Positions 6,365 to 34,033 of a stretch of 41,053 nucleotides of DNA are shown piece after piece. Under the pieces are notes generated by a model, which did not search any database, was not told the origin of the DNA, and saw nothing but the letters and a program-made list of their open reading frames with translations. Position 1 is the first letter of the stretch. Each line of letters begins with the position of its first letter. The stretch covers positions 1-41,053 of the forward strand of contig NZ_JAAXPV010000020.1 of the NCBI RefSeq assembly GCF_012396615.1, written 5' to 3'. This DNA is from Rothia terrae. GTDB taxonomy: Bacteria; Actinomycetota; Actinomycetes; Actinomycetales; Micrococcaceae. The position numbers and the translations under genes are program-made.

Positions 6365-7027
6365 TTACAGCCCCACCATTTTAGCATCGCTGAGTTCTGT
6401 CAGAGTTTCGCGCAGTCGCTGCGCATCAGCCTTTTCAAGACCGGGAATGGTCGTGCTTGCCGAAGATGCTGTTTTTACTTCTACGGATGCGAGGTTCAGC
6501 TTGGATTCGATAGGCCCGGATTTCACATCGACGTACTGGATGCGTCCGTAGGGAATGGCCCGCACTTCGTGAAACATAATGCCGCTACAGGTGAGCAGGT
6601 GGTCCTGACGCTCGCTGTAGCCAAGTGCTCTTACCTGCCGTTGGATGATCGCCAGATACCAGGTTTGAAGGGCAGCGACGATTCCAAGGATTCCCCAACA
6701 GACCCAGGGCGCCCAGTTCCACCAGTGCAGAAACTGCGTGAAGATCAGAGGGAGAGCCGCAAGTGCCACAATAATTAGTGCCCAGATTAGCCCCGTGATA
6801 AGGCGTGCTTTTGCGTAGCGCGGTTGTACGCGCTTCCAGTCAACGCCCGAAGGATCGATTCTGGCTGTTTTCAGGCCGTCGAGGTCAAGCGGTGGTAAAG
6901 TCGGTGCAAAAGTACGCGGCATGGGTTGAGGGGACGTCTCGCGGTGAGAATCCCACGGTGCGTTTCCAGCGATTCTGGGTTCAGAGTGCGCCGGTTCTGC
7001 GATGGGTGACAATTGCGGTTCAGTCAT
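6365..7027 (-). CDS. Bacterial PH-domain (YdbS-like) membrane protein
   Basis: This 220-residue YdbS-type protein has a cytoplasmic, Pro-rich N-terminus (residues 1-55), two transmembrane helices (about 73-128) and one bPH2 domain (about 130-215) with the characteristic IPYGRIQYVDVKSGPIESKL segment. It is the partner of the larger PH protein whose start codon immediately follows its stop. The start at 7027 is supported by AAGGAAG at a good distance. The function of the pair is unknown. Confidence 0.9.
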   Translation of the reverse strand: MTEPQLSPIAEPAHSEPRIAGNAPWDSHRETSPQPMPRTFAPTLPPLDLDGLKTARIDPSGVDWKRVQPRYAKARLITGLIWALIIVALAALPLIFTQFLHWWNWAPWVCWGILGIVAALQTWYLAIIQRQVRALGYSERQDHLLTCSGIMFHEVRAIPYGRIQYVDVKSGPIESKLNLASVEVKTASSASTTIPGLEKADAQRLRETLTELSDAKMVGL

Positions 7028-17715: not shown

Positions 17716-18828
17716 TTAGCGAACGACGCTCAAATCACCGTCGGTGGAATCCCACACAACGGTAACGCCCTTAGAGAAGCGCTGAATAACATCCTGACCT
17801 GACCATTCTTCGCCAGATACGGGGTAGCCGTAGCCGTTTTCAAAGCCGTTGTGGCTCCACTGCCAGCCGATGCCACCGGTTTCGAGAACGTGGTGAGTGC
17901 CGGTTGCCGGTGACCACAGCACTTTGTTGGAGGCGCCGTCGTTCTTGCGGAACAGCTGGTATGCGCCACCGTCTAGGAGTCCGCCTGATTCGTTCATGGT
18001 GGGGTAGCCGAGTTCTTTTTCGGCGCCGTTAGCCAGCCAGTAGCTACCAATGCCGCTATTTTCGCGCAGGTAGTGCGCACCGGTTGACTGTGACCAAACA
18101 AAGCGGGTTACTGTACCGTCTTTGCTAAAGCGCTGGTGGACGCCGCCGATACCGTCTGAAATTTCATCGGTGATGGGCTCGCCAAAGCGAGCGGTGCCGC
18201 CCTCTGCGCGGAACAGTTCACCGATTGCACCCTTAATCTCGTGAGCGGATGCTGCTGAGACCTGTGAGGTGAGGTCGGCGGGTCCGCGTCCGTTCTCGTA
18301 ACGGTAGATACCTACGTTACCGAGAACGCGCCAGGGCAGGCCGTTGCCGTAGCCGTAAGCAAGACCGATGCCCGCCGCGTTGGCCTCGGGAGCCAAGACG
18401 GCTGCACGGTGTGCAGGTGAGCTCTTCCAGAAGGCAAGAAGCTGGCCGAGGTCATCGTTGTATGACAGCGCAATGACTTCGCGTGCGAAGGAGTATCCGG
18501 CTGCGCGGGAATCGTTAAGGAAGGCGGTGCCGTGTGAAACGTAGCCCTGCGCGAACTGGCGGCGAGCTTCGGGTTCCTGGATAGCAGCTAGGGTAGCTGA
18601 GTGACGAAGCGGGCCGAGTCCGTTTTCGGCGCGGAACTGGTTGATCAGGTTGAGCAGGGTCTGAGTGTCTGCTGCGCGCTGTTCGTTTGATACCGAACGC
18701 AAGTCTGAGGTTGATGCGTTCGCAACGCTTGTGCCGAGCGTTGCGGTTGCGGTTGCTGCAAGCGCGAAGATACCAACCTGGCGGCGGCTAAGATGTGCTG
18801 AAGTGCCGCCGGCGAGTGAAAGATTCAT
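17716..18828 (-). CDS. Secreted CAP-domain protein with LGFP repeats
   Basis: This is a 370-residue exported protein. I chose the ATG at 18828 because GGAG sits six nt upstream; an in-frame ATG at 18840 lacks a site. The signal peptide (residues 1 to about 38) contains SRRQVGIFALAA, a twin-arginine-like start, and ends near ANA. A CAP (SCP/PR-1) domain follows at about 45-185 (NQFRAENGLGPL, SPAHRAAVL, NVGIYRY). The rest (about 200-365) is a run of LGFP-type repeats (ANGAEKELGYPTMNE, NGFENGYGYPVSGEE), which bind cell-wall material in actinobacteria. The likely role is at the cell surface; the exact function is unknown. Confidence 0.9.
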   Translation of the reverse strand: MNLSLAGGTSAHLSRRQVGIFALAATATATLGTSVANASTSDLRSVSNEQRAADTQTLLNLINQFRAENGLGPLRHSATLAAIQEPEARRQFAQGYVSHGTAFLNDSRAAGYSFAREVIALSYNDDLGQLLAFWKSSPAHRAAVLAPEANAAGIGLAYGYGNGLPWRVLGNVGIYRYENGRGPADLTSQVSAASAHEIKGAIGELFRAEGGTARFGEPITDEISDGIGGVHQRFSKDGTVTRFVWSQSTGAHYLRENSGIGSYWLANGAEKELGYPTMNESGGLLDGGAYQLFRKNDGASNKVLWSPATGTHHVLETGGIGWQWSHNGFENGYGYPVSGEEWSGQDVIQRFSKGVTVVWDSTDGDLSVVR

Positions 18829-18840
18829 GTAATACTCCAT

Positions 18841-19339: not shown

Positions 19340-19371
19340 CCCCGGCGAAAACTACCTTGCTTTCACCGGGG
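19340..19371 (-). terminator. Terminator of the small amphipathic peptide gene
   Basis: An 11-bp stem (CCCCGG-GAAA arms) with a 10-nt loop. The one non-Watson-Crick position is a G-U wobble only in minus-strand RNA, and the downstream minus-strand sequence is T-rich (AGTTGTTGTCTTCTTG). Both facts indicate transcription from the minus strand. Confidence 0.7.
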
Positions 19372-19413
19372 CGTCACCGTATTCAAGACAGGGCAAATAC
19401 CCTAGATACCTAC

Positions 19414-19500
19414 TTAGGCTCCGATTCCAAAGATTCCAAGAATCTTAAGAATCAGCTCACCAATACCGCCAATGGCCTGGATGATGCCTGCAATATCCAC
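19414..19500 (-). CDS. Small amphipathic PSM-like peptide (28 residues)
   Basis: A 28-codon gene begins with GTG at 19500, with an excellent AAAGGAG six nt upstream, and ends with TAA. The product starts MDIAGIIQAIGG and ends LGIFGIGA. It contains nine Ile, three Leu, one Phe and seven Gly, and only three charged residues (Asp2, Glu15, Lys19; net about -1). On a helical wheel, Gln8, Glu15, Lys19 and Gly12/22 fall on one face, and Ile3/6/10/13/17/20 and Leu21/Phe24 on the opposite face, giving a clear amphipathic helix with no signal peptide. This resembles staphylococcal phenol-soluble modulins or leaderless bacteriocins. I recognise no specific family. A promoter and a terminator frame it. 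Function (surfactant, membrane-active or signalling peptide) is inference. Confidence 0.72.
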   Translation of the reverse strand: MDIAGIIQAIGGIGELILKILGIFGIGA

Positions 19501-19510
19501 TGTCTTCTCC

Positions 19511-19559
19511 TTTCCAAGGAAACCAACCCGCGCACCTTTACGTGCTTCGGAAACCGAAG
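19511..19559 (-). promoter_or_regulatory. 5' UTR hairpins of the peptide gene
   Basis: In the leader RNA, CTTCGG/CCGAAG (19545-19559, 3-nt loop) forms a short perfect hairpin. The palindrome TTTCCAAGGAAA (19511-19522) lies immediately before, and partly overlaps, the ribosome site, so it could control translation. Structure inferred by eye. Confidence 0.4.
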
Positions 19560-19567
19560 TTTCGCTA

Positions 19568-19596
19568 TTTATACTAATCAGTATTTCAAACTTTAA
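19568..19596 (-). promoter_or_regulatory. Candidate promoter of the peptide gene
   Basis: On the minus strand, TTAAAG (-35, 19591-19596) and TATAAA (-10, 19568-19573) are separated by 17 nt, giving a leader of about 60 nt before the GTG at 19500. Confidence 0.5.
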
Positions 19597-19824
19597 ACAA
19601 TAGATTTTTGGTTAAGTTTTGGCTACATTTAGCCCTCTGACATGGTCAAATATTAACCATTGATTAACGGTTGCCATTTCTATAACGCTTCAATAACCAT
19701 CGGGCCCGACTCTCTGCGCATTTTTCACCAGAAGATTGACCAGAATTCTGACCAGCCATATCTCTTATTTACGTGCCGCCCTCCCCCGCTCTTTTCGCTT
19801 AATACTTCTGAAACAGCCCTTATA

Positions 19825-19872: not shown

Positions 19873-22800
19873 GTGTTTTTTACAGACAGTTTCACCACCG
19901 CAACATTCGACGGCAAACCCGGCCAGTCACTGGTGTTCTCAGCGAGTGACCTCGTCAACGCATCCACCTGCGAGTTTGCCACGCTGATGATTCTTGATGA
20001 AAAGCTCGGCAGAACCCCCAAAACAGCCATCACGGATGATGCCATGCTCGAACGCACCGCCGGCCTCGGCGATGCCCACGAGCTTGCTGTGCTCGATGAC
20101 TTTCGCGCTCAATTCGGTGAATATAAAGCTGAGAACGGCACCGGTGTTTACGAAGTCTCCATGGATCACGGTTTTAGCTCAGCAGAGCTTCGCGAGAAAA
20201 ATGCCGAGACCGTTGCAGCGCTAAAGGGCGGGGCTGATGTCGTCTTTCAGGCGTCCTTCTTTGATGGCGAGTTTTATGGGCGCGCGGACTTTCTTCTCAA
20301 ACAGCTAGATGGTTCTTACGCGGTCTACGACACCAAGCTGGCGCGTCATGCTAAAGTCACCGCGCTTTTGCAGCTCGCCGCCTATGCAGACCAGTTAGAG
20401 GTAAACGCTATTCCCGTTGCGCCTCAAGCAGGCCTCATCTTGGGAACCGGTGAACACGTTCTCTTCGATATTGACGATATTGTCCACGTTTTCAGGGAGC
20501 GTCGCGAACGCTTTAAAACTCTTGTGGCGGCCCACGGTGCACCCGGTGTAGCTCCTGTTGACTGGTGGCACGGTTCTCAGGCGATAGCGAGCATTACTCA
20601 GTGCGGGCGCTGCGATTACTGCACGCAACAGGCTCGACGTTTTCAGGATGTACTGCTAGTTGCAGGGTTGAGCACTCGTCAGCGCGCTCGTCTTGCCGAA
20701 CGCTACGGCATCCGAACCATCAACGAGCTAGCCACCTACAACGGCTCGCGCGGCAACCTCACCGGAACTTTAGCTAAGTTGCAGGCGCAAGCGGCGGTAC
20801 AGATCGGTGTTGGCGAGGTTGATGGAACGCGCTCATACGTCCAGGATGGTTCTACACACCAGGTGTCGTATAAAGTCACCGATACTGCTCCTCTTGAGCG
20901 TCTGCCGTTGGCAAATGAGGGCGATATCTTCTTTGATTTTGAGGGCGATCCGCTGTGGCAAGGGACCGATGGCTCATGGGGTATCGAGTATCTTTTTGGC
21001 GTCGTAGAAACTCCGCTGGGGTTCGAAGAGCCGGTTTTTCGTCCGTTCTGGGCGCATAGCCGGGCACAAGAGCGCCAGGCGCTGATTGATTTTCTGGATT
21101 ATGTTCAGGCGCGTCGTGCACAGTACCCCAGCATGCGCATCTACCACTATGCCAACTACGAAAAGCGGGCGCTGCGCGATTTAGCGGCTAAGCATGGCGT
21201 AGGCGAGGACGCTGTCGATCAGCTGTTGCGCGAAAATGTGCTGGTTGATTTGTATGAGACGGTGCGTAACTCACTGCGTATTAGCGAAAATTCGTACAGC
21301 ATCAAGAAATTAGAGCCCCTGTATATGGGTGAAAATTTGCGCGGTGGCGAGGTCAAGGACGCCGGTGCGTCCGTAGTAGCTTACGCCAATTATTGCCAGG
21401 CGCACGATGCTGGTCGAGCTGAAGAGGCAGCTCAGATTCTTGAGTCTATTGCCGACTACAACCGCTACGACTGCGTATCGACTTTGGAACTTCGAAACTG
21501 GTTGCTGTCATTAGTTCACCGCGATGTTGCCAGTGAGCTTGCTACCGAACCCGAGGTTCTGGCGGTGCAAGAGTTGTTAGAGGCCAGTGGCAAAGATGAA
21601 GAAGAACCCACGCCCGCTGAACGCGCCCTTCAGGAATATCTTGAATCGCTGGATACCGATGAAGAACTCTCTGCAGATGATCAGGCCATTGCGATGGTCG
21701 CCTCGGCAACCGGTTACCACCGGCGCGAACGCAAGCAGTTTTGGTGGGATCATTTTGACCGTCTGTCGTCCTCTGTTGAAGACTGGGAAGACACCCGCAA
21801 TACGCTGATTTTTGAGCGTCTTGACGTGGTTGACGATTGGCACGTGCCACCGCGTAAGCGTTCCCAGGTGCGTAGGCTCTCGGGTACCGCGCGTATGGCA
21901 GATGGGTCGTCCTTCAAAGAGGGCGAAAGCGGTTTGTTCTTGATGTATGAGAACCCGCTGCCCGAGTACTTTGAAGAGATGCTGATGGCTGATGCTCAGC
22001 GTTTTGCAGCGTCCAACGGAACCGGGGCGATGCCTCGCGTTCAGGACCGTTCCGGGCATTTTAAAGCCACGCTGGTAGAGGTTGAAAAGCCGTCTGCAAC
22101 CAGTGCAGAAACTCGTGTGCGCGTAGTGATTGAAGAGTCCTTGCCGAAGACCGTCGAGCCGTTTTCGCATCTGCCTATTGCGCTGACTCCGGCGTCTCCC
22201 ATTCGCACGGCTGCCCAAGAGGAGTCTTTGGCTGAGCTGGCACTAACGGTGGGTAATTCCCTGCCGACTCTACCTCACCTGGCGGGGCTCGATATTTTGC
22301 GCAGGCGCGCACCGCGCCTCACGGGTGGTCTCTCGCTGCCCTGCCCCGAAGAGTTCGTTGAGGACCACGGTTCGCTAGCCACTGTTGAGGCGATGTACCG
22401 CGCCGTCAAAGAGCTGGACCATTCTTACATCGCAGTGCAGGGCCCTCCCGGGTCTGGCAAGACCTTTGTGGGGTCGCAGGTTATCGCCAAGCTTTTGGAC
22501 GATGGGTGGAACATCGGCGTGGTGGCGCAGTCTCACGCGGTGGTTGAGAATATGCTCGCCGGCTGCATCAAAAATGGCAAGCTCAACCCGGCGCGCATTG
22601 CCAAAGCCAAAAAGAAGGGCACTCAGCCTAACGACCACGGCTGGCAAGAACTTGACACCGCCGACATTCCGGGCTTTCTGGCGCAGCCGGGCACTCTCTT
22701 TGGCGGCACAGCGTGGGATTTTGCCAACAGCAAGAAAATCCCCGGCCAGGCCCTCGACCTACTGGTCATCGATGAGGCTGGACAGTACTCACTAGCCAAT

Positions 22801-23616
22801 ACCCTGGCGGTGGCACGCGCATCCAAAAACATGTTGCTCTTGGGCGACCCGCAGCAGCTACCGCAGGTAACCCAGGGCTCGCACCCCTACCCCGTTGATG
22901 AATCAGCACTGGGCTGGCTCAGCGCTGAGCACCCCACCCTGCCAGAGAATCTCGGTTACTTTTTGGGCGTTACCTGGCGCATGCACCCCGACTTATGCGC
23001 ACCTGTCTCAGTGCTCTCATACGAGGGTAAGCTGACCTCAGCGCCTCACGCCGCGCATCGAGAACTCTCGCATTGCGCCCCCGGTGTCTACGTTCAAGAA
23101 ATCAGCCACGCCGGAAACACCATTTACTCGCCCGAAGAAGCGCGCGAAACCGTGCGCATCGCCCGCGAATTCATAGGGCAAGAATGGACGCCTGACACCG
23201 GAAAACCTGACACCGCCCGGCCCATCGAACCAGAGGATATCTTGGTGGTCGCCGCCTACAACGCGCAGGTTGATCTCATCACCGAGTATCTGGTGCAGGC
23301 AGGCCTCAGCGACGGTATTGGCGGCGGAGTACGCGTGGGCACCGTTGACAAATTCCAAGGCCAAGAAGCGCCCGTCGTCATTGTGTCCATGGCGGCATCC
23401 AGCGCAGGTGATTCCTCACGCGGTGCGGAGTTCCTGCTCTCTCCCAACCGCCTGAACGTGGCGATTTCGCGCGGTCAGTGGTGCGCCATCATCCTGCGCT
23501 CCGCCACGCTCACCAACTATCTACCCACCAGTCCGCAGTCACTCAATCTGCTCGGACGATTTGTACGGCTGAGCAGAAACGCCCAAAAATTTCCCCACAT
23601 TCCTGACCACCAGTAG
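19873..23616 (+). CDS. TM0106-type RecB-like nuclease fused to SF1 helicase
   Basis: A large 1247-residue DNA/RNA-processing enzyme. I chose the GTG at 19873, which has AAGGAG six nt upstream, over a frame opening at 19660 that adds 71 unconserved residues. From the N-terminus: a RecB-like PD-(D/E)XK nuclease with GRAD (136-139), the DTK catalytic strand (153-155) and QLAAYADQ; a candidate iron-sulfur set (Cys33 plus CxxCxxC at 244/247/250) as in Cas4/AddB; an RNase H-like DEDD region (FFDFEGDP near 353, then HYANYEKRAL and YNRYDCVSTLELRNWLL); and an SF1 helicase with Walker A GPPGSGKT near 857, DEAG near 966, GDPQQLPQV and the C-terminal NRLNVAISR. Family role is uncertain; DNA repair or phage defence are both possible. 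Confidence 0.88.
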   Translation: MFFTDSFTTATFDGKPGQSLVFSASDLVNASTCEFATLMILDEKLGRTPKTAITDDAMLERTAGLGDAHELAVLDDFRAQFGEYKAENGTGVYEVSMDHGFSSAELREKNAETVAALKGGADVVFQASFFDGEFYGRADFLLKQLDGSYAVYDTKLARHAKVTALLQLAAYADQLEVNAIPVAPQAGLILGTGEHVLFDIDDIVHVFRERRERFKTLVAAHGAPGVAPVDWWHGSQAIASITQCGRCDYCTQQARRFQDVLLVAGLSTRQRARLAERYGIRTINELATYNGSRGNLTGTLAKLQAQAAVQIGVGEVDGTRSYVQDGSTHQVSYKVTDTAPLERLPLANEGDIFFDFEGDPLWQGTDGSWGIEYLFGVVETPLGFEEPVFRPFWAHSRAQERQALIDFLDYVQARRAQYPSMRIYHYANYEKRALRDLAAKHGVGEDAVDQLLRENVLVDLYETVRNSLRISENSYSIKKLEPLYMGENLRGGEVKDAGASVVAYANYCQAHDAGRAEEAAQILESIADYNRYDCVSTLELRNWLLSLVHRDVASELATEPEVLAVQELLEASGKDEEEPTPAERALQEYLESLDTDEELSADDQAIAMVASATGYHRRERKQFWWDHFDRLSSSVEDWEDTRNTLIFERLDVVDDWHVPPRKRSQVRRLSGTARMADGSSFKEGESGLFLMYENPLPEYFEEMLMADAQRFAASNGTGAMPRVQDRSGHFKATLVEVEKPSATSAETRVRVVIEESLPKTVEPFSHLPIALTPASPIRTAAQEESLAELALTVGNSLPTLPHLAGLDILRRRAPRLTGGLSLPCPEEFVEDHGSLATVEAMYRAVKELDHSYIAVQGPPGSGKTFVGSQVIAKLLDDGWNIGVVAQSHAVVENMLAGCIKNGKLNPARIAKAKKKGTQPNDHGWQELDTADIPGFLAQPGTLFGGTAWDFANSKKIPGQALDLLVIDEAGQYSLANTLAVARASKNMLLLGDPQQLPQVTQGSHPYPVDESALGWLSAEHPTLPENLGYFLGVTWRMHPDLCAPVSVLSYEGKLTSAPHAAHRELSHCAPGVYVQEISHAGNTIYSPEEARETVRIAREFIGQEWTPDTGKPDTARPIEPEDILVVAAYNAQVDLITEYLVQAGLSDGIGGGVRVGTVDKFQGQEAPVVIVSMAASSAGDSSRGAEFLLSPNRLNVAISRGQWCAIILRSATLTNYLPTSPQSLNLLGRFVRLSRNAQKFPHIPDHQ

Positions 23617-26668: not shown

Positions 26669-29362
26669 TTAGCCGTCTATCGCATCCAGCTCGAGCTTGC
26701 CACCCGCATAGACCAAGTTTTTTGCCAGCGGAATCTGGTGCGACGCGGATTCCAAGATGTGCATGAAGTAGCCCGCGGTATTGGGGAAGACAATAAAATC
26801 GCCCACCTGAACGCCCTGCGGAAAACGGATGGGGCGGCGCATGATCACCTCATCCTCGATGCAGTAGGCACCCACCAGATAGCCCTCGTAGGGTTGCGCA
26901 TCAGCAGCGGGTTCGGATGCGCGAACGTGCAGCGGATCCACCAGGTAGTCGTCGGAGGTAGTGCGCAACTGGGTACGGTTCATGGCAAGACCAACCAGCG
27001 GCACACCATCGCTACGCTTTTTAATAAAAGCAACCCGCGCGACAATCAGGCCGCATCCATCAAGGATGCTGCGCCCCGGCTCAAGGTGTAGACGCACGCC
27101 GAGTTCGCGAATGGCGTCCCCTGCTGGCGACGTGAGAATCTGGTCTAGCCAGTCGCCGCGCACGGGTGCCTGGTGGAAAGGATAGAAGTTTTTCAGCGGG
27201 TCTGCTTTCCACGTAAAGGGCGCAATAGCACCCTTGTTTTGTGCGGTCAGCGCCTGCTTGAAGTTAGTCCACTGGTCAGCATCATCAAGGTAGCTCATGG
27301 GCACGCCGCCACCAATGTCGATGAATTCTAGATGGTGCCCTACCGCTTTCAAACGCTGAATCAGATCGGTTGCCTCCAGCAGAGCATCAATGCGGTCTTG
27401 CGCGCTGTAGCCGTGCAAATGCAGGTGCACACCGGCAACCTTCACATGCTGATGCGGTTCTGCCAAATAGCCCGCCCACACATCGGTCAGCTCACCAAAG
27501 CGAGTGGGCATAAAACGCTCCGGGTCGGGAGCAATACGCGGTGCCACGCGCACCGTCTTATCCCCTGCCAAAGCAGTAATGCGGTCGAACTCCGCGCAGG
27601 TATCAACAGAAATTGTCACACCGTTATCAATAGCGAGCTGCAAGAGCTCATCGGTCTTAATGGCTGCTGAGAGAATGATGCGCTCCCCCGGCATTCCCGC
27701 TGCCAGCGTCTGGCTGAGCTCGCGGTGGCTAGCAACATCTACGCCGTGCCCGGCGTCGCGAGCACGTTCCACAAAAGTGAGTGCCTTGTTAGCCTTACGG
27801 GCAAAGAAGACGCGCACGTCAACACCGTGTTTTTCGCCCTGCGCGGTGAGTTCTGTGCAGTTGCGTTCCATAGCATCTGACTGCACCAGATTGACCGGGC
27901 TATTGTGCTCTTTCACCGCGCGCTGCAAGAGGTCCACGCTACCTGCAACCTCGCGCATCCACGGCTCCAGCCTGCCGGTCAGCGGCGGTAAAGCGTAGGC
28001 ATCTGAGGGCGCATGCAATGAGGCAATGGTCTGCGCCCACTGTGGAATAACGGTGTGCAAGTTACGGGAGAGTGAGTCATTCCCCAGCACATAGGGCTCC
28101 GTCATGCGACCGGCAAAGGCAAAGCGAGTCTGCCCCGGCAACATGCCGTTAGATTCGGTACAAACAGTCACCGGTGAATCAGTGGGTGCCTGCTCGGGTG
28201 CGACTGCCTCTAGCACTCGGGCACAGAAAGTCTCAGGATGCGCGCCGGGGGCTGCCAACACCGCGTCCACCGTGAAATCTGCGGTGAAATCCGAGCCATC
28301 GGCAAGGTATGAGAAATCTAAAATTCCAGCTTCTGCCACCGCGATCAGACGCTCCACCTGTTCGGCAGGCGCACCGTAAGCATAGGTCTCCAGCAAGCGA
28401 GCAAGCTCAGCGAAATCATCGGTTAAGGAAAGCTCATCAAAAGAGAACCGCTCGATAATCGGCGTGTAAAGCTCACGCCACACCAACCCCACGGTTTGCT
28501 GGAGACGACGCAGGTGAGCCAGTGATTCGCGGAACTCAGCGAGCGCATCCGGTGCAGGTTCCAATGCGTCCCAGATGAACTTCTCCCCTGTTATTGCTTC
28601 GGTCGCCTCAGCCAGCAGATTCTTAAGCTCGTCCACCGATGACAGGGCAGCGATGCACGGCACAAAAGGCTTAAGAAGCTTCTTCTCGGCATCCGTTGCA
28701 GGCAGGATTTTCAGCTGAATAAAACGACCGCTACGGGAAGTCGGGTAAATGCGTGCGGGTTCTTTGCCCGAAGGAATGTAGGTGCCGTTTTCGATGCGTC
28801 CACCGCGACCGAGTGTCAGCGACAGAATCGAGTCAATCGCGGTGAGTGCTGCCCCGCGCAGGCGCACGGTGCTACCAGCATCCACCTGATTGAGCTGCGT
28901 AAAAGGATCAAGCATGCCTGACGGATGCGACGCGACCTCATGGCCGGTCACCACCAGTACATGGTCAAAGCTATCTAGCTGGGAGAGCTCGGTGGCGTCC
29001 TCACGCACAAAGTTAATAGCGCAGGTGCTGGGAAGATGCGCCACTGCGTGCTCCCACGACGCTTTCAGAAAGCGTCCTACCGTAGCTCGCGGCGGAAATT
29101 CCTCTAGCGGCTGCGCCTCACCAAGCACATCTTTGCGGTAATCGTCCAGGGATCCCATCGCCGTGCGAATCACCGGTGACCACACGTTCACGCGCACGTG
29201 CTCAGGCTGGTCAACACCATACGCGCCGCCGACTCCGGGCTCGCGCGCATCAAAAACAGTGATATTCAGTGGCAGATGGTGCAGGTAGGCAACACGGGAC
29301 AGCTCTTCAACAGCCCACAGACCGCGCGGACCGGCACCGATAATAGCGATTGAGATTGGCAC
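26669..29362 (-). CDS. Fusion: FAD/NAD(P)-binding domain + type III PLP decarboxylase
   Basis: An 897-residue fusion. Residues 1 to about 450 are an FAD/NAD(P)-binding oxidoreductase-like domain: the dinucleotide fold IAIIGAGPRGLWAVEEL lies at 5-21 and GVGGAYGVDQPEHVRVN at 43-59. Residues about 465-897 are an alanine-racemase-fold PLP decarboxylase of the ornithine/diaminopimelate group, with the PLP lysine in FFARKAN (Lys523), HLHGYS (648-653), phosphate-binding IDIGGGVP (681-688), EPGR (761-764) and the dimer-site Cys-x-x-Asp in YCIEDE (Cys834, Asp837). The GTG start has GAGGAA seven nt upstream. It follows an SbnA-like gene by 57 bp, recalling SbnA/SbnB/SbnH of staphyloferrin B synthesis. 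The exact reaction is inference. Confidence 0.85.
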   Translation of the reverse strand: MPISIAIIGAGPRGLWAVEELSRVAYLHHLPLNITVFDAREPGVGGAYGVDQPEHVRVNVWSPVIRTAMGSLDDYRKDVLGEAQPLEEFPPRATVGRFLKASWEHAVAHLPSTCAINFVREDATELSQLDSFDHVLVVTGHEVASHPSGMLDPFTQLNQVDAGSTVRLRGAALTAIDSILSLTLGRGGRIENGTYIPSGKEPARIYPTSRSGRFIQLKILPATDAEKKLLKPFVPCIAALSSVDELKNLLAEATEAITGEKFIWDALEPAPDALAEFRESLAHLRRLQQTVGLVWRELYTPIIERFSFDELSLTDDFAELARLLETYAYGAPAEQVERLIAVAEAGILDFSYLADGSDFTADFTVDAVLAAPGAHPETFCARVLEAVAPEQAPTDSPVTVCTESNGMLPGQTRFAFAGRMTEPYVLGNDSLSRNLHTVIPQWAQTIASLHAPSDAYALPPLTGRLEPWMREVAGSVDLLQRAVKEHNSPVNLVQSDAMERNCTELTAQGEKHGVDVRVFFARKANKALTFVERARDAGHGVDVASHRELSQTLAAGMPGERIILSAAIKTDELLQLAIDNGVTISVDTCAEFDRITALAGDKTVRVAPRIAPDPERFMPTRFGELTDVWAGYLAEPHQHVKVAGVHLHLHGYSAQDRIDALLEATDLIQRLKAVGHHLEFIDIGGGVPMSYLDDADQWTNFKQALTAQNKGAIAPFTWKADPLKNFYPFHQAPVRGDWLDQILTSPAGDAIRELGVRLHLEPGRSILDGCGLIVARVAFIKKRSDGVPLVGLAMNRTQLRTTSDDYLVDPLHVRASEPAADAQPYEGYLVGAYCIEDEVIMRRPIRFPQGVQVGDFIVFPNTAGYFMHILESASHQIPLAKNLVYAGGKLELDAIDG

Positions 29363-29419
29363 GAATGATTCCTCTGTGTAGATGTATCGCAGTTGTACTG
29401 AGTTTAGTAGAGCGCCCGT

Positions 29420-30388
29420 TTAATGCAGGTTTTCTTCAACCCACTCATCGTTGTAGATGGTGCCGGCATACGGCATACCGCCGTCGTGCAAAACCACCAC
29501 GATTTCTTCGCCCTTCTCAAAGGAAGGCGCATCGGCAGCGAGGGCAGCCATGACGGCACCGCCGGAAGCACCGGGCACAATGGCTTCGGTCTGCCCCAGC
29601 TCGCGGGCACTTTTCACCGCGTCAAGAGCATCAACACGACGCGTACCGGTGGGGGTTTGGCGAGTGGAGAGTTCGGTGACGACGCCTGCGCCGTAACCGG
29701 GAAGCAGACGTTCACCGCGGGCACCGCCGTAGAGTACTGAGCCTTCAGCGTCCACGGCAATGACCTGGGTATCTGCCCCGCGTTTGGCGACTTCAGCGAT
29801 GCATCCGCCCACGGTACCGGTAGTAGAGACCGCCACGTAGACGCGCGACGGCGCATGCCCCAAAGCATCAAAAATTTCTGACATCGTACCTTCGCTGTGA
29901 GCTGTGAAAGCAGCCTGGTTCGAGTACTGGTCCAGGTTGATAGAACCGGGGTTCTCCTCCAGCAACTCGCGCACCTTATTCTTGCGCGCAGTCAGCCAGT
30001 CATTAGTTTCAGGGTCGGGTTCGGTGACAGGGTGGAGGACGCCACCGTACGCCTGGATCAGCCCGAGAGTTGACTGGTTAGTGCGCGGATCAACCACGCA
30101 GTGAAATTCAAAATCTTCGAGAATTGCCTGACGCGCTAGGGCTATGCCCAGGTTGCCGGAACTGGACTCAATCACCATGGTGCCGGGCTTGAGGCGTCCG
30201 GATGCTTTCGCGTCCTTGACCAGTGCAGCTGCGGTGCGATCTTTAGCGCTCCCGCCGGGGTTAAAGCTCTCAAGCTTGGCGAAGATTTTTACACCCTTCA
30301 CCTCGTGCGCAGCTTCCCAGCGGGGAAGGCGGACGAGCGGGGTGTTGCCGGCAACTTCTTCGATGCCGTTATATAAACGTGGGGTCAT
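29420..30388 (-). CDS. SbnA-like PLP-dependent synthase (cysteine-synthase family)
   Basis: A 322-residue fold-type II PLP enzyme. The PLP lysine is Lys49 in PGGSAKDRTA and the substrate loop is ESSSGNLGIALA (74-85). CVVDP, VDAEGSV and LPGYGA match, position by position, what I recall of Staphylococcus SbnA, which condenses O-phosphoserine and glutamate en route to L-2,3-diaminopropionate. It is less like housekeeping CysK. It forms an operon with the FAD/decarboxylase fusion gene. No ribosome site precedes the ATG; a TAGAAT -10 seven nt upstream suggests a leaderless mRNA. A cysteine-synthase role is the alternative. Confidence 0.82.
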   Translation of the reverse strand: MTPRLYNGIEEVAGNTPLVRLPRWEAAHEVKGVKIFAKLESFNPGGSAKDRTAAALVKDAKASGRLKPGTMVIESSSGNLGIALARQAILEDFEFHCVVDPRTNQSTLGLIQAYGGVLHPVTEPDPETNDWLTARKNKVRELLEENPGSINLDQYSNQAAFTAHSEGTMSEIFDALGHAPSRVYVAVSTTGTVGGCIAEVAKRGADTQVIAVDAEGSVLYGGARGERLLPGYGAGVVTELSTRQTPTGTRRVDALDAVKSARELGQTEAIVPGASGGAVMAALAADAPSFEKGEEIVVVLHDGGMPYAGTIYNDEWVEENLH

Positions 30389-31527: not shown

Positions 31528-31586
31528 ACTTTCCGTGGATTTGCGCTGTAAAAACGTCCAAATTACAGCGCAAATCCACGGAAAGT
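31528..31586. repeat. 59-bp palindromic element, copy 2 (24-11-24, perfect)
   Basis: Arms at 31528-31551 and 31563-31586 are perfect 24-bp reverse complements (ending AATCCACGGAAAGT) around an 11-nt loop. Same geometry and sequence family as 25132-25190. Lies between the divergent HAD gene and the MntR-type regulator gene. Confidence 0.92.
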
Positions 31587-31623
31587 GCGTTCGGCTGTCT
31601 TTATAAAAGCTAAAGTTAGTCCC

Positions 31624-32298
31624 ATGCCTTTATCAGATCTTTCCGAGAGCACTCAGAACTACCTGAAGACCATCTGGGGTCTTACCGAGTGGTCGGATGA
31701 GCCCGTCACCACCTCGCGCATCGCCGAGAAAACCGGCCTACGCCTATCGAGTGTTTCGGACGCGCTCAAGCGACTGAGCAAGGCAGGGCTCGTTATCCAC
31801 CAGCCCTACAGCGCCATTGAGCTCACGGCTGAGGGCCGCACCTACGCGGTTGAAATGGTGCGCCGTCACCGCTTGATTGAGACCTTCCTTGTAAAGACTC
31901 TCGGGTACGGCTGGGACCAGGTGCACGACGAAGCGGAGGTACTAGAGCACTCCGTGTCTGATAAATTCATTGCTCACATTGATGAGCTATTGGGCAACCC
32001 CACCAAGGATCCTCACGGCGACCCTATCCCCACCGCATCCGGCGTATTTAGCGACACCGACGCACACACCCTCCTGCACTGCCCCGTGGGGTCAAAGGTG
32101 AAAGTGGAACGCATCGATGACGATGACGCTGGCCTGTTGCGCTTCTTTGCCGACCGCAAAGTAGCGCCCGGCGCGGTACTCACTGTCAAAGAACCAGAGC
32201 CCTTCTCAGATTCGCTCTCCGTTGAAGCAGACGGGCAGCTCATGACACTGGGCCGATACGCCGCAGCAGCGCTCTTTGTGTCAGGATGCGAAGACTAA
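31624..32298 (+). CDS. mntR: DtxR-family manganese-type regulator (MntR-like)
   Basis: A 224-residue metal-dependent repressor with a winged helix-turn-helix (residues about 7-72), a dimerisation and metal-binding domain (about 75-140) and a C-terminal SH3/FeoA-like domain (about 148-220). Ancillary-site ligands (His82, Glu86, His101) are kept. At the primary site the Cys of iron-type DtxR/IdeR is replaced by Glu105, with Glu108 and His109 following, as in Mn-type MntR; the usual Met near the N-terminus is Asn12. I chose the ATG at 31624 because the protein then begins with the family's standard helix. It is convergent with the Mn importer genes, which it probably controls. Confidence 0.85.
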   Translation: MPLSDLSESTQNYLKTIWGLTEWSDEPVTTSRIAEKTGLRLSSVSDALKRLSKAGLVIHQPYSAIELTAEGRTYAVEMVRRHRLIETFLVKTLGYGWDQVHDEAEVLEHSVSDKFIAHIDELLGNPTKDPHGDPIPTASGVFSDTDAHTLLHCPVGSKVKVERIDDDDAGLLRFFADRKVAPGAVLTVKEPEPFSDSLSVEADGQLMTLGRYAAAALFVSGCED

Positions 32299-32421: not shown

Positions 32422-33297
32422 CTAGGTTCCGGGCTTCTCTACAACTCGCATCCTAGCTTTCTTGCCGCGCATCCAGACACTCACCAGTCCGTAGCGGGGA
32501 CTTGCTATATAAACGGCGGTGAAGATGAGTCCCTGCACCAAAACCACCGCGCCACCAGGGGAAACATCAATATAGTAGCTCAGATACAGCCCTACAATCG
32601 ATCCGATGGCAGAGACTACCGGCGCGATCATCAGCATTCGTGAGAACTTGTTGGTGAGCATACGCGCGGTTGCGCCGGGAATAATGAGCATGGCGACCAC
32701 GAGGACGACGCCCACAATTTGCAGTGCGAGCACGTTAGTAAGTGCAAGCATCACCAGTAGGACGCCGCTGATTATGTGCGGGCGCAGTCCGATAGCCTGC
32801 GCGTAGTTGGGGTCGAAGGCAACGAGAACAAAGTCTTTGCGTTTGATCAGCAGAACCGCTGAAACCACCAGCCCGAGAACCGCAATCTGAAGAACGTCTG
32901 CCGTTGAAATGCCTAGGACGTTGCCAAAGAGAATGTGGTTGAGGTCGGTGTGCGACGGCGTAATGGAGATGAGCACCAGCCCCAGCGCAAAGAGGGTGGT
33001 GAAGACGATGCCGATGGCGGTGTCTTCGGCGATGCGCCGCGTCCCTCGCCTGATGCCCCACATGAGAATCACTGCCACGAGGGCTGCTACTAGCGCCCCC
33101 ACGGCAAAGGGTGCCCCCACGATGTAGGCAATTACCACTCCCGGTAGTACGGCGTGGGAAATCGCATCACCCATGAGCGACCACCCCATGAGAACTAGCC
33201 AGCAGGAGAGTAAAGAGCAGGTTACAGCCATGAGGACGGTGGCGATTAGCGCTCGTTGCATGAATTCGAAGGTGAGCGGTTCAAGCAGAAAATTCAC
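32422..33297 (-). CDS. mntC: Metal (Mn) ABC transporter permease
   Basis: A 291-residue integral membrane protein of the ABC-3 family (MntC/ZnuB/TroC). About eight hydrophobic helices are visible, with WSLMGDAISHAVLPGVV near residues 37-53, the conserved coupling segment of this family. The frame is open for 38 further codons upstream, but those run through the ATPase gene in another frame. I chose the GTG at 33297, which gives the normal N-terminus NFLLEPLTFEFMQRALIA. It overlaps the end of the ATPase gene by 17 bp, indicating translational coupling. Confidence 0.9.
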   Translation of the reverse strand: MNFLLEPLTFEFMQRALIATVLMAVTCSLLSCWLVLMGWSLMGDAISHAVLPGVVIAYIVGAPFAVGALVAALVAVILMWGIRRGTRRIAEDTAIGIVFTTLFALGLVLISITPSHTDLNHILFGNVLGISTADVLQIAVLGLVVSAVLLIKRKDFVLVAFDPNYAQAIGLRPHIISGVLLVMLALTNVLALQIVGVVLVVAMLIIPGATARMLTNKFSRMLMIAPVVSAIGSIVGLYLSYYIDVSPGGAVVLVQGLIFTAVYIASPRYGLVSVWMRGKKARMRVVEKPGT

Positions 33298-34033
33298 GGT
33301 TGACCTGCGCTTTCGTCTGTCCGCTAAATGCTCGCATGATGTTTTCGGGGGTGAGCACGTGCTCCGGTGTGCCGTGCATGAGGATGGTGCGGCGCATGAG
33401 CGCGGCTTCATCGATCATTTGGGTGAGTGAGGGAAGGTCGTGTGATGACACCAAAACGGTGGCGCCGTGTGATGCTAGTTCGCGCAGCACCTGGCCGAGC
33501 ATTTGTTCGCTGGCATAATCCACACCTGCAAAGGGTTCATCGAGCAGAAGGACGCGTGCCTGCTGGGCGATAGCGCGAGCGACGAACGCTCGTTTGCGCT
33601 GGCCACCGGAAAGCTCACCGATTTGCCGATGGGCGTAGTCGGTGAGCGCAACCTGTTCCAGTGCGTGATCGATATGGCGGCCGCATCGTCGGGTAAGTTT
33701 TCGAGTGAACCCAAGCCGCCCGTACAAGCCCATTGCGACAACTTCGCGAACGGAAATCGGAAAGCCCCAGTCAATCTCTTCGCTTTGCGGCACATAGCTG
33801 ACGAGACCGGCTGAGCGCGCTTTTTCAGGCGTCATCCCGGCGATGCGGACTTCACCCGTTTCGCAGGGCACAACACCCATGGTGGCTTTGAAAAGGCTGG
33901 ATTTCCCTGAGCCGTTCATGCCTACGAGGCCGCAGACCACGCCGGGGTTGAGTTGTAGGGATGCGTGGTTGAGAGCTCGCACGCTTCCATATCTCACGCT
34001 CACATCATGTATATCAAGGGCGGGATGGTTCAC
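33281..34033 (-). CDS. mntB: Metal (Mn) ABC transporter ATP-binding protein
   Basis: A 250-residue ABC ATPase that powers metal uptake. Walker A is GMNGSGKS at residues 38-45, the Q-loop VPQSEEIDWGFP is the signature variant seen in Mn/Zn importers, the ABC motif is LSGGQRKR near 139-146, and Walker B is VLLLDEPFAG near 158-167, with an H-loop SSHD after it. Its end overlaps the permease start. A 103-bp gap with a hairpin (34060-34112) separates it from the binding-protein gene upstream. Confidence 0.94.
   Translation of the reverse strand: MNHPALDIHDVSVRYGSVRALNHASLQLNPGVVCGLVGMNGSGKSSLFKATMGVVPCETGEVRIAGMTPEKARSAGLVSYVPQSEEIDWGFPISVREVVAMGLYGRLGFTRKLTRRCGRHIDHALEQVALTDYAHRQIGELSGGQRKRAFVARAIAQQARVLLLDEPFAGVDYASEQMLGQVLRELASHGATVLVSSHDLPSLTQMIDEAALMRRTILMHGTPEHVLTPENIMRAFSGQTKAQVNREFSA

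Follow-up and report, generated by a model that had tools for sequence, protein, structure and literature searches.

A 28-codon gene of Rothia terrae with relatives in four other species: a candidate family of leaderless amphipathic peptides

Introduction

Can a reading frame of only 28 codons in an intergenic gap of Rothia terrae be told apart from a chance ORF and, if it is a gene, what would its product do? The frame lies on the minus strand of contig NZ_JAAXPV010000020.1, of which the whole stretch of 41,053 nucleotides analysed here is called the window. It is flanked by genes for a CAP/LGFP secreted-type protein (17716–18840, minus strand) and a TM0106-type nuclease-helicase (19873–23613, plus strand). 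An earlier note on this DNA had proposed a self-contained gene for an Ile/Gly-rich, amphipathic peptide resembling phenol-soluble modulins (PSMs) or leaderless bacteriocins. Most known PSM-like peptides come from staphylococci; tandem genes occur in part of the PSM family and no exporter gene adjoins them. The literature we searched, which was mostly open-access, yielded among the papers listed no published report of this peptide family for Rothia or actinobacteria.

Results

The short gene and its signals

The GTG-started frame and its AAAGGAG Shine-Dalgarno (SD) site are present as proposed (Table 1), and the GTG is the earliest start in frame, with none upstream. The intergenic region around them is AT-rich (GC 0.417 versus 0.554 for the window). 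The remaining signals agree with the earlier note only in part. The TTAAAG-17-TATAAA motif exists, but TTAAAG matches TTGACA at 3/6 positions and the motif is absent from the output of a consensus promoter scan for this region; the one-base-shifted TTTAAA-18-TATAAA has a consensus score of 9/12. The promoter is plausible but weak by consensus. Where leader hairpins had been claimed, a single perfect one was found; it lies close to the expected transcript start and is a candidate 5′ hairpin or operator. The terminator hairpin (8/13 pairs G-C) is, by eye, strand-specific as claimed, but through two wobble G-T pairs functional in minus-strand RNA only and not through one. Terminator-like sites are not in excess in the surrounding 3 kb (three versus a shuffle mean of 3.8), and the remaining two have just 5 and 6 pairs. 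The 236-nt region 19565–19330 folds with z = −3.83 (0/200 shuffles equally low), partly because the terminator is included.

Table 1. Features of the peptide gene in the window and of the two-gene operons found in relatives.
Feature	Position	Strand	Remarks
28-codon gene, MDIAGIIQAIGGIGELILKILGIFGIGA, GTG to TAA	19414..19500	(-)	relatives in 4 other species
Shine-Dalgarno site AAAGGAG	19507..19513	(-)	6 nt 5′ of GTG
Promoter-like TTAAAG-17-TATAAA	19568..19596	(-)	by eye; alternative TTTAAA-18-TATAAA from 19597
Leader inverted repeat CTTCGG-TTT-CCGAAG	19545..19559	(-)	single copy in window
Intrinsic-terminator hairpin, 13 pairs, weak T-rich tail	19340..19371	(-)	42 nt past stop
Two-gene operon, solely 31-34 residue amphipathic peptides	L127 9829-10069 (G033); L081 9973-10217 (G011)		

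Relatives in the genus

Counterparts of the gene were found in 5/35 genomes of the genus (source included) by a stepwise route, DNA similarity first and then HMMs of growing membership. A protein search of the 35 genomes with the 28-mer gave nothing above noise but itself, and no candidate in the genomes G025, G011 and G026. With the 271-bp region as a DNA query, the same 35 genomes gave, outside the window, nothing but weak matches, and these are surely chance for the most part. One of them, in G025 (E 0.0156), begins exactly at the GTG of a 31-codon frame whose first seven residues are identical to those of the window peptide. A two-member HMM (window and G025) run against 295 family genomes matched G026 (E 9e-17) and G011 (E 0.016). 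Between the two ranks a match inside a long frame of G112, which belongs to another genus (E 0.009). Since this long-frame match outranks a true relative, weak scores alone are not proof, and the membership of G011 is based on start codon, SD, length and operon rather than on score. A four-member HMM then matched G033 in the 35 genus genomes (E 4e-7, next match E 0.17). The five-member HMM gave a best further match of E 0.14 in the same 35 genomes, the E-values of its own five members being so by construction.

Leave-one-out HMMs were scored against 20,000 shuffles each. Two shuffles reach the score of the window peptide, and none does so for G011 (0/20,000), for G033 (0/20,000) or for G025 with G026 also removed (0/20,000); a model built from G025 and G026 alone is matched by 15/20,000 shuffles for the window peptide.

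Outside the genus, the order, family profile and pattern searches gave no convincing member. The two-member model found none in 396 order genomes, and the best outside match of the four-member model in 240 family genomes (E 0.007) lies in a long frame. A sequence pattern search of 295 genomes gave two matches, both inside the genus. A second reading of 118 weak-hit loci, on the strand of the match, showed no frame of ≤ 60 aa with an SD of at least 5 bases among the matches listed; the closest locus by eye, L066 of another genus, has 22 aa and an SD of 4. Viral contigs gave 0 matches, and tblastn of plasmids with the two peptides of the G011 operon described below matched nothing. Two further leads were set aside: a degenerate DNA pattern with four matches on genome contigs of unrelated phyla, taken as chance, and a recurring DNA match at query positions 113–157 (G016, G031, G019, G004, G020, G021), whose loci in G016, G031 and G019 overlap with a longer open frame that they share.

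The neighbouring gene on the plus strand, in which the TM0106-type nuclease is fused to an SF1 helicase, was matched by its N-terminal 300 residues in 27/35 genus genomes and is therefore absent or diverged in eight. In the flanks (∼ 1.5 kb) retrieved with these matches no similar SD-led short ORF was seen. In a tree of the nuclease-helicase (26 rows) the five carriers of the peptide gene fall patchily in one half of 12 species, with four changes needed; this clustering is not significant, since 121/500 label shuffles are equally low.

A two-gene form of the locus

In G011 and G033 the family gene is the second (B) of a two-gene operon (Table 1). Gene A, MAAFDWSVLTDLLKSALDIASQIIKILQAAGVFG in G011 (34 codons) and MSSIDWSAIGEFFNGAISIASEIIKILSAAGVL in G033 (33 codons), has its own SD-like site in both, and a hairpin closes the operon. 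The two gene A peptides are 52% identical, share the pattern DWS...IASxIIKILxAAGV and form a second putative family, again with no Pfam or NCBIfam match. The G033 operon has a promoter, TTGACA-16-TCTAAT (11/12 consensus), 82 nt 5′ of gene A. Between the two, at about 9783–9806 of L127, lies the inverted repeat GGTAGCCCTAACTCAGGGGTTACC, which by eye looks like an iron box; given this resemblance, the operon might be iron-controlled.

A gene A model run against 295 family genomes gave only G011 as convincing, with the window genome (G000) and G025 both included but unmatched, and a protein search with the G011 A peptide likewise gave only G011. This draw of 295 holds part of the 35 genus genomes, with G026 in a draw of the same size, so that the 'single' status of the gene in three species is provisional. 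Sequence support for paralogy of A and B is weak and mixed: hhalign aligns the two with a probability of 16% (E 0.0016), and in cross-scoring 168–833/10,000 shuffles reach the observed scores in four comparisons and 7465/10,000 when the A model is set against G025 B. A B/A hybrid origin of the window peptide was rejected (gene A model −1.5 bits, reached by 8122/10,000 shuffles).

Constraint on the frame, and the chance-ORF reading

The sister species G025 and G026 permit a direct comparison. Their coding sequences (96 nt) are identical at 91/96 positions, and of the five differences one affects the start codon (GTG/ATG), one the stop codon (TAA/TAG) and one an amino acid, while the other two are silent. 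Outside the coding sequence identity is 21/24 in the SD region, 99/126 in the leader and 191/270 further upstream, with 74/104 and 210/280 downstream; the four flanking stretches are thus 71–79% identical. Two 30-nt non-coding blocks (−210 to −180 and 450 to 480) reach 28/30 each, which is nearly CDS-like, and the neighbouring DUF4031 gene is identical at 817/894 DNA positions. A strong hairpin follows the stop in 5/5 loci; in G025 and G026 the hairpin sequences differ and the stem is kept.

Might the frame nevertheless be a chance ORF? Short frames are frequent (the window contains 980 start-to-stop frames of 20–45 aa when nested starts are counted), and most species of the genus do not show this one. 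The 28-codon ORF is, however, the only one of the 980 to combine SD ≥ 5 with a mean hydrophobicity of at least 0.35 and an 18-residue moment of at least 0.40. Moreover, 0/2000 Markov-simulated regions yield SD ≥ 6, H ≥ 0.6 and moment ≥ 0.48; the cut-offs in these comparisons were chosen after the ORF was seen. Start, frame, SD-like site, hairpin and constraint also recur across species. The frame is very probably a real gene, and we consider a chance origin highly improbable. Its conservation, on which the earlier note had staked its claim, is seen in four more species; in the other 30/35 genomes the frame was not found within the sensitivity of the five-member profile search. With its own SD, hairpin terminator and recurring frame, the locus bears out the proposal of a self-contained short gene.

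Properties of the peptides

The seven peptides of these loci are alike in composition. Net charge is −1 in 6/7 and −2 in 1/7, Cys is absent from 7/7, the first acid stands at position 2 or 5 and no K/R occurs among the first seven residues. By inspection none has a signal peptide (no early basic residue), and each extends 5–9 residues past its last K/R. Mean Eisenberg hydrophobicity is 0.38–0.67, the Kyte-Doolittle 19-residue maximum 1.25–2.19 and the best 18-residue moment 0.40–0.62. This moment exceeds that of shuffles in 5/7 peptides (p 0.0002–0.0034); in G025 and G026 it falls short of significance (p 0.09 and 0.10). For the window peptide p is 0.027 over the full length and 0.0018 over the best 18 residues; the peptide is amphipathic, rich in Ile and Gly and lacks a basic N-region, in line with the earlier note. 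Its calculated average mass is 2767.4 Da, or about 2795.4 Da when formylated. AlphaFold2 predicts one helix for G026 B (residues 3–29, five rows, mean pLDDT 78.7, pTM 0.32), a lone helix that would carry little information on function; charged residues are located within the predicted helix.

Pfam and NCBIfam gave no match at E ≤ 10 for 7/7 peptides, a search in which HMMER filters may drop proteins of 28–34 residues. PHROGs searched with six peptides gave only E 0.25 (a holin family) and 0.31, and profiles of B and A each found nothing below E 0.13 among PDB sequences.

Genomic neighbours

The genes around the family differ between lineages. Whereas the window gene lies between the CAP/LGFP and nuclease-helicase genes, in G011 the neighbours are an endonuclease III-type glycosylase and an acetyl-CoA synthetase; in G025 an MFS pump and the DUF4031 gene, with a PadR-like ORF (by eye) between them, a setting that G026 resembles by ORF layout only. 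In G033 a catalase gene lies downstream, and ∼ 2.5 kb upstream are an FtsX-type permease and an ABC ATPase. This pair apart, neither an ABC exporter nor a PH-domain gene is present among the identified neighbours, and the nearest neighbours identified include no transporter or immunity gene common to the loci. The family thus has no exporter or immunity gene of its own linked to it. This argues against a bacteriocin cluster of the classical type, and both PSM-like peptides and peptides directed at the cell's own membrane are compatible with it.

Elsewhere in the window, a bPH_2 protein is encoded at 6365–7027 (minus strand) beside DUF3180 and folate genes, 12 kb from the peptide gene. In the loci of leaderless bacteriocins, PH-domain proteins are connected with immunity and transport, according to the available text of PMC11580447. 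Given its place in the folate cluster 12 kb off, the bPH_2 gene was not counted as an immunity gene of the locus, and its proximity is probably coincidental. A further gene (26669–29362, minus strand) fuses an FAD/NAD-binding domain to an Orn/Arg-decarboxylase N domain and adjoins a PALP enzyme (29420–30388, minus strand), with a DtxR-type regulator (31585–32298) and an ABC-3 permease (32422–33411) nearby; judged by its domains, the region 26669–30388 looks like an amino-acid-derived metallophore cluster.

Discussion

What kind of peptide would such a gene make? One possibility, which we think rather unlikely and yet worth serious attention, is an intracellular type I toxin or stress peptide like TisB, which would be induced by stress, insert in the cell's own membrane and lower the proton motive force, with a structured leader or an antisense RNA keeping it off. 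The transcript region here is indeed structured. Two-peptide operons are unusual for type I systems, and those of G011 and G033 speak against this reading. TisB is a 29-residue membrane toxin (PMC11449926, available text), close to the present peptides in length and in its amphipathic helix, whereas the type I toxins SprA1 and AapA1 have positively charged terminal parts (PMC8309996, available text). The peptides described here are net negative, run on past their last K/R and lack such a basic end. As for an antisense RNA, the promoter scan gave a single weak site on the plus strand, at 19799, and a search of Rfam gave no match.

Roles of other kinds seem improbable to us. The alternation between one and two genes recalls cell-envelope channel peptides such as corynebacterial PorA/PorH, which reside in the cell wall of mycolate-bearing actinobacteria; we know of no mycolate membrane in Micrococcaceae, and this host group, together with the absence of a Pfam or NCBIfam match for the seven peptides, weighs against the comparison. 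The likeness lies in short, leaderless, amphipathic peptides encoded by one or two genes in an actinobacterial host: in C. glutamicum porA and porH are arranged as an operon, and single-peptide channels of 37–40 aa exist, for which amphipathic helices have been proposed (PMC5944148, available text). We would give equally little credence to the peptide being a small subunit, regulatory or accessory, in some membrane complex, or a leader peptide by which an adjacent gene is controlled. Length and hydrophobicity would suit such a role, but the neighbours change from lineage to lineage, each of the five genes is followed by its hairpin and charged residues lie inside the helix.

The earlier note had likened the peptide both to PSMs and to leaderless bacteriocins, and of these the first likeness is favoured. 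Aureocin A53-like leaderless bacteriocins, which have also been mined in Actinomycetota, share with the present family short leaderless peptides, sometimes several per locus. They have, however, a mean length of 50 residues and a mean charge of +4.63, and their loci often, though not always, include PH-domain and ABC genes (PMC11580447, available text), whereas the peptides here have 28–34 residues, a charge of −1 to −2 and no shared PH-domain or ABC neighbours. The available part of that survey does not mention Rothia. An aureocin A53-like bacteriocin is disfavoured by charge, length and neighbours. PSMs are amphipathic helical peptides secreted without a signal peptide (PMC7872022, available text), and the short amphipathic helix without a signal peptide is what the present family has in common with them; it differs in being actinobacterial and in its net charge of −1 to −2, and it has no match in the Pfam and NCBIfam scans, whose filters are weak at 28–34 residues. 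Tandem genes in part of the family and the absence of an adjoining exporter gene are further common traits.

We therefore propose, as a reading on which our confidence is about evenly balanced, that the peptides are released, PSM-like surfactants or membrane-perturbing peptides of a family without signal peptides. The best reading may be that they work like PSMs; true membership of the PSM family is not claimed. Its ground is what the sequences establish: the structure of the gene, the conservation of its frame, the tandem genes of relatives and the amphipathic character of the peptides. The patchy distribution (5/35) counts against it, as do the moments of G025 and G026, the p value of the full-length window peptide, the missing Pfam or NCBIfam match, the lack of an exporter or immunity neighbour common to the loci and the two 30-nt blocks conserved outside the G025/G026 coding sequence. 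The absence of a signal peptide, the weakly anionic helix, the SD-like site, the short mRNA, the strong hairpin and the one- or two-peptide format would together fit an abundant, membrane-lying peptide.

On this PSM-like reading the window locus would be a monocistronic gene for a formyl-Met-started, amphipathic helix of 28 residues without a signal peptide, in a family encoded apparently singly in three species and, in two, by the second gene in an operon for two peptides. The leaderless peptide would leave the cell by leakage or via a general exporter whose gene lies elsewhere, and would rest on or insert into membranes. It may self-associate, and pair with its partner peptide where one exists, to act on competitors or surfaces as a weakly anionic, PSM-like surfactant or membrane-perturbing agent. 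More tentatively, and with rather more doubt than conviction, we suggest that these leaderless and weakly anionic helices, single or in pairs, constitute an actinobacterial family not described before, which arose independently of staphylococcal PSMs and may do the same job, that is, surfactant action, spreading, killing of competitors and signalling to host formyl-peptide receptors. If true, this would provide a second independent case in which the purpose of leaderless amphipathic peptides could be tested. The family also suggests that conserved genes for 28–34 residues, including two-gene operons that encode nothing but such peptides, can escape curated family libraries.
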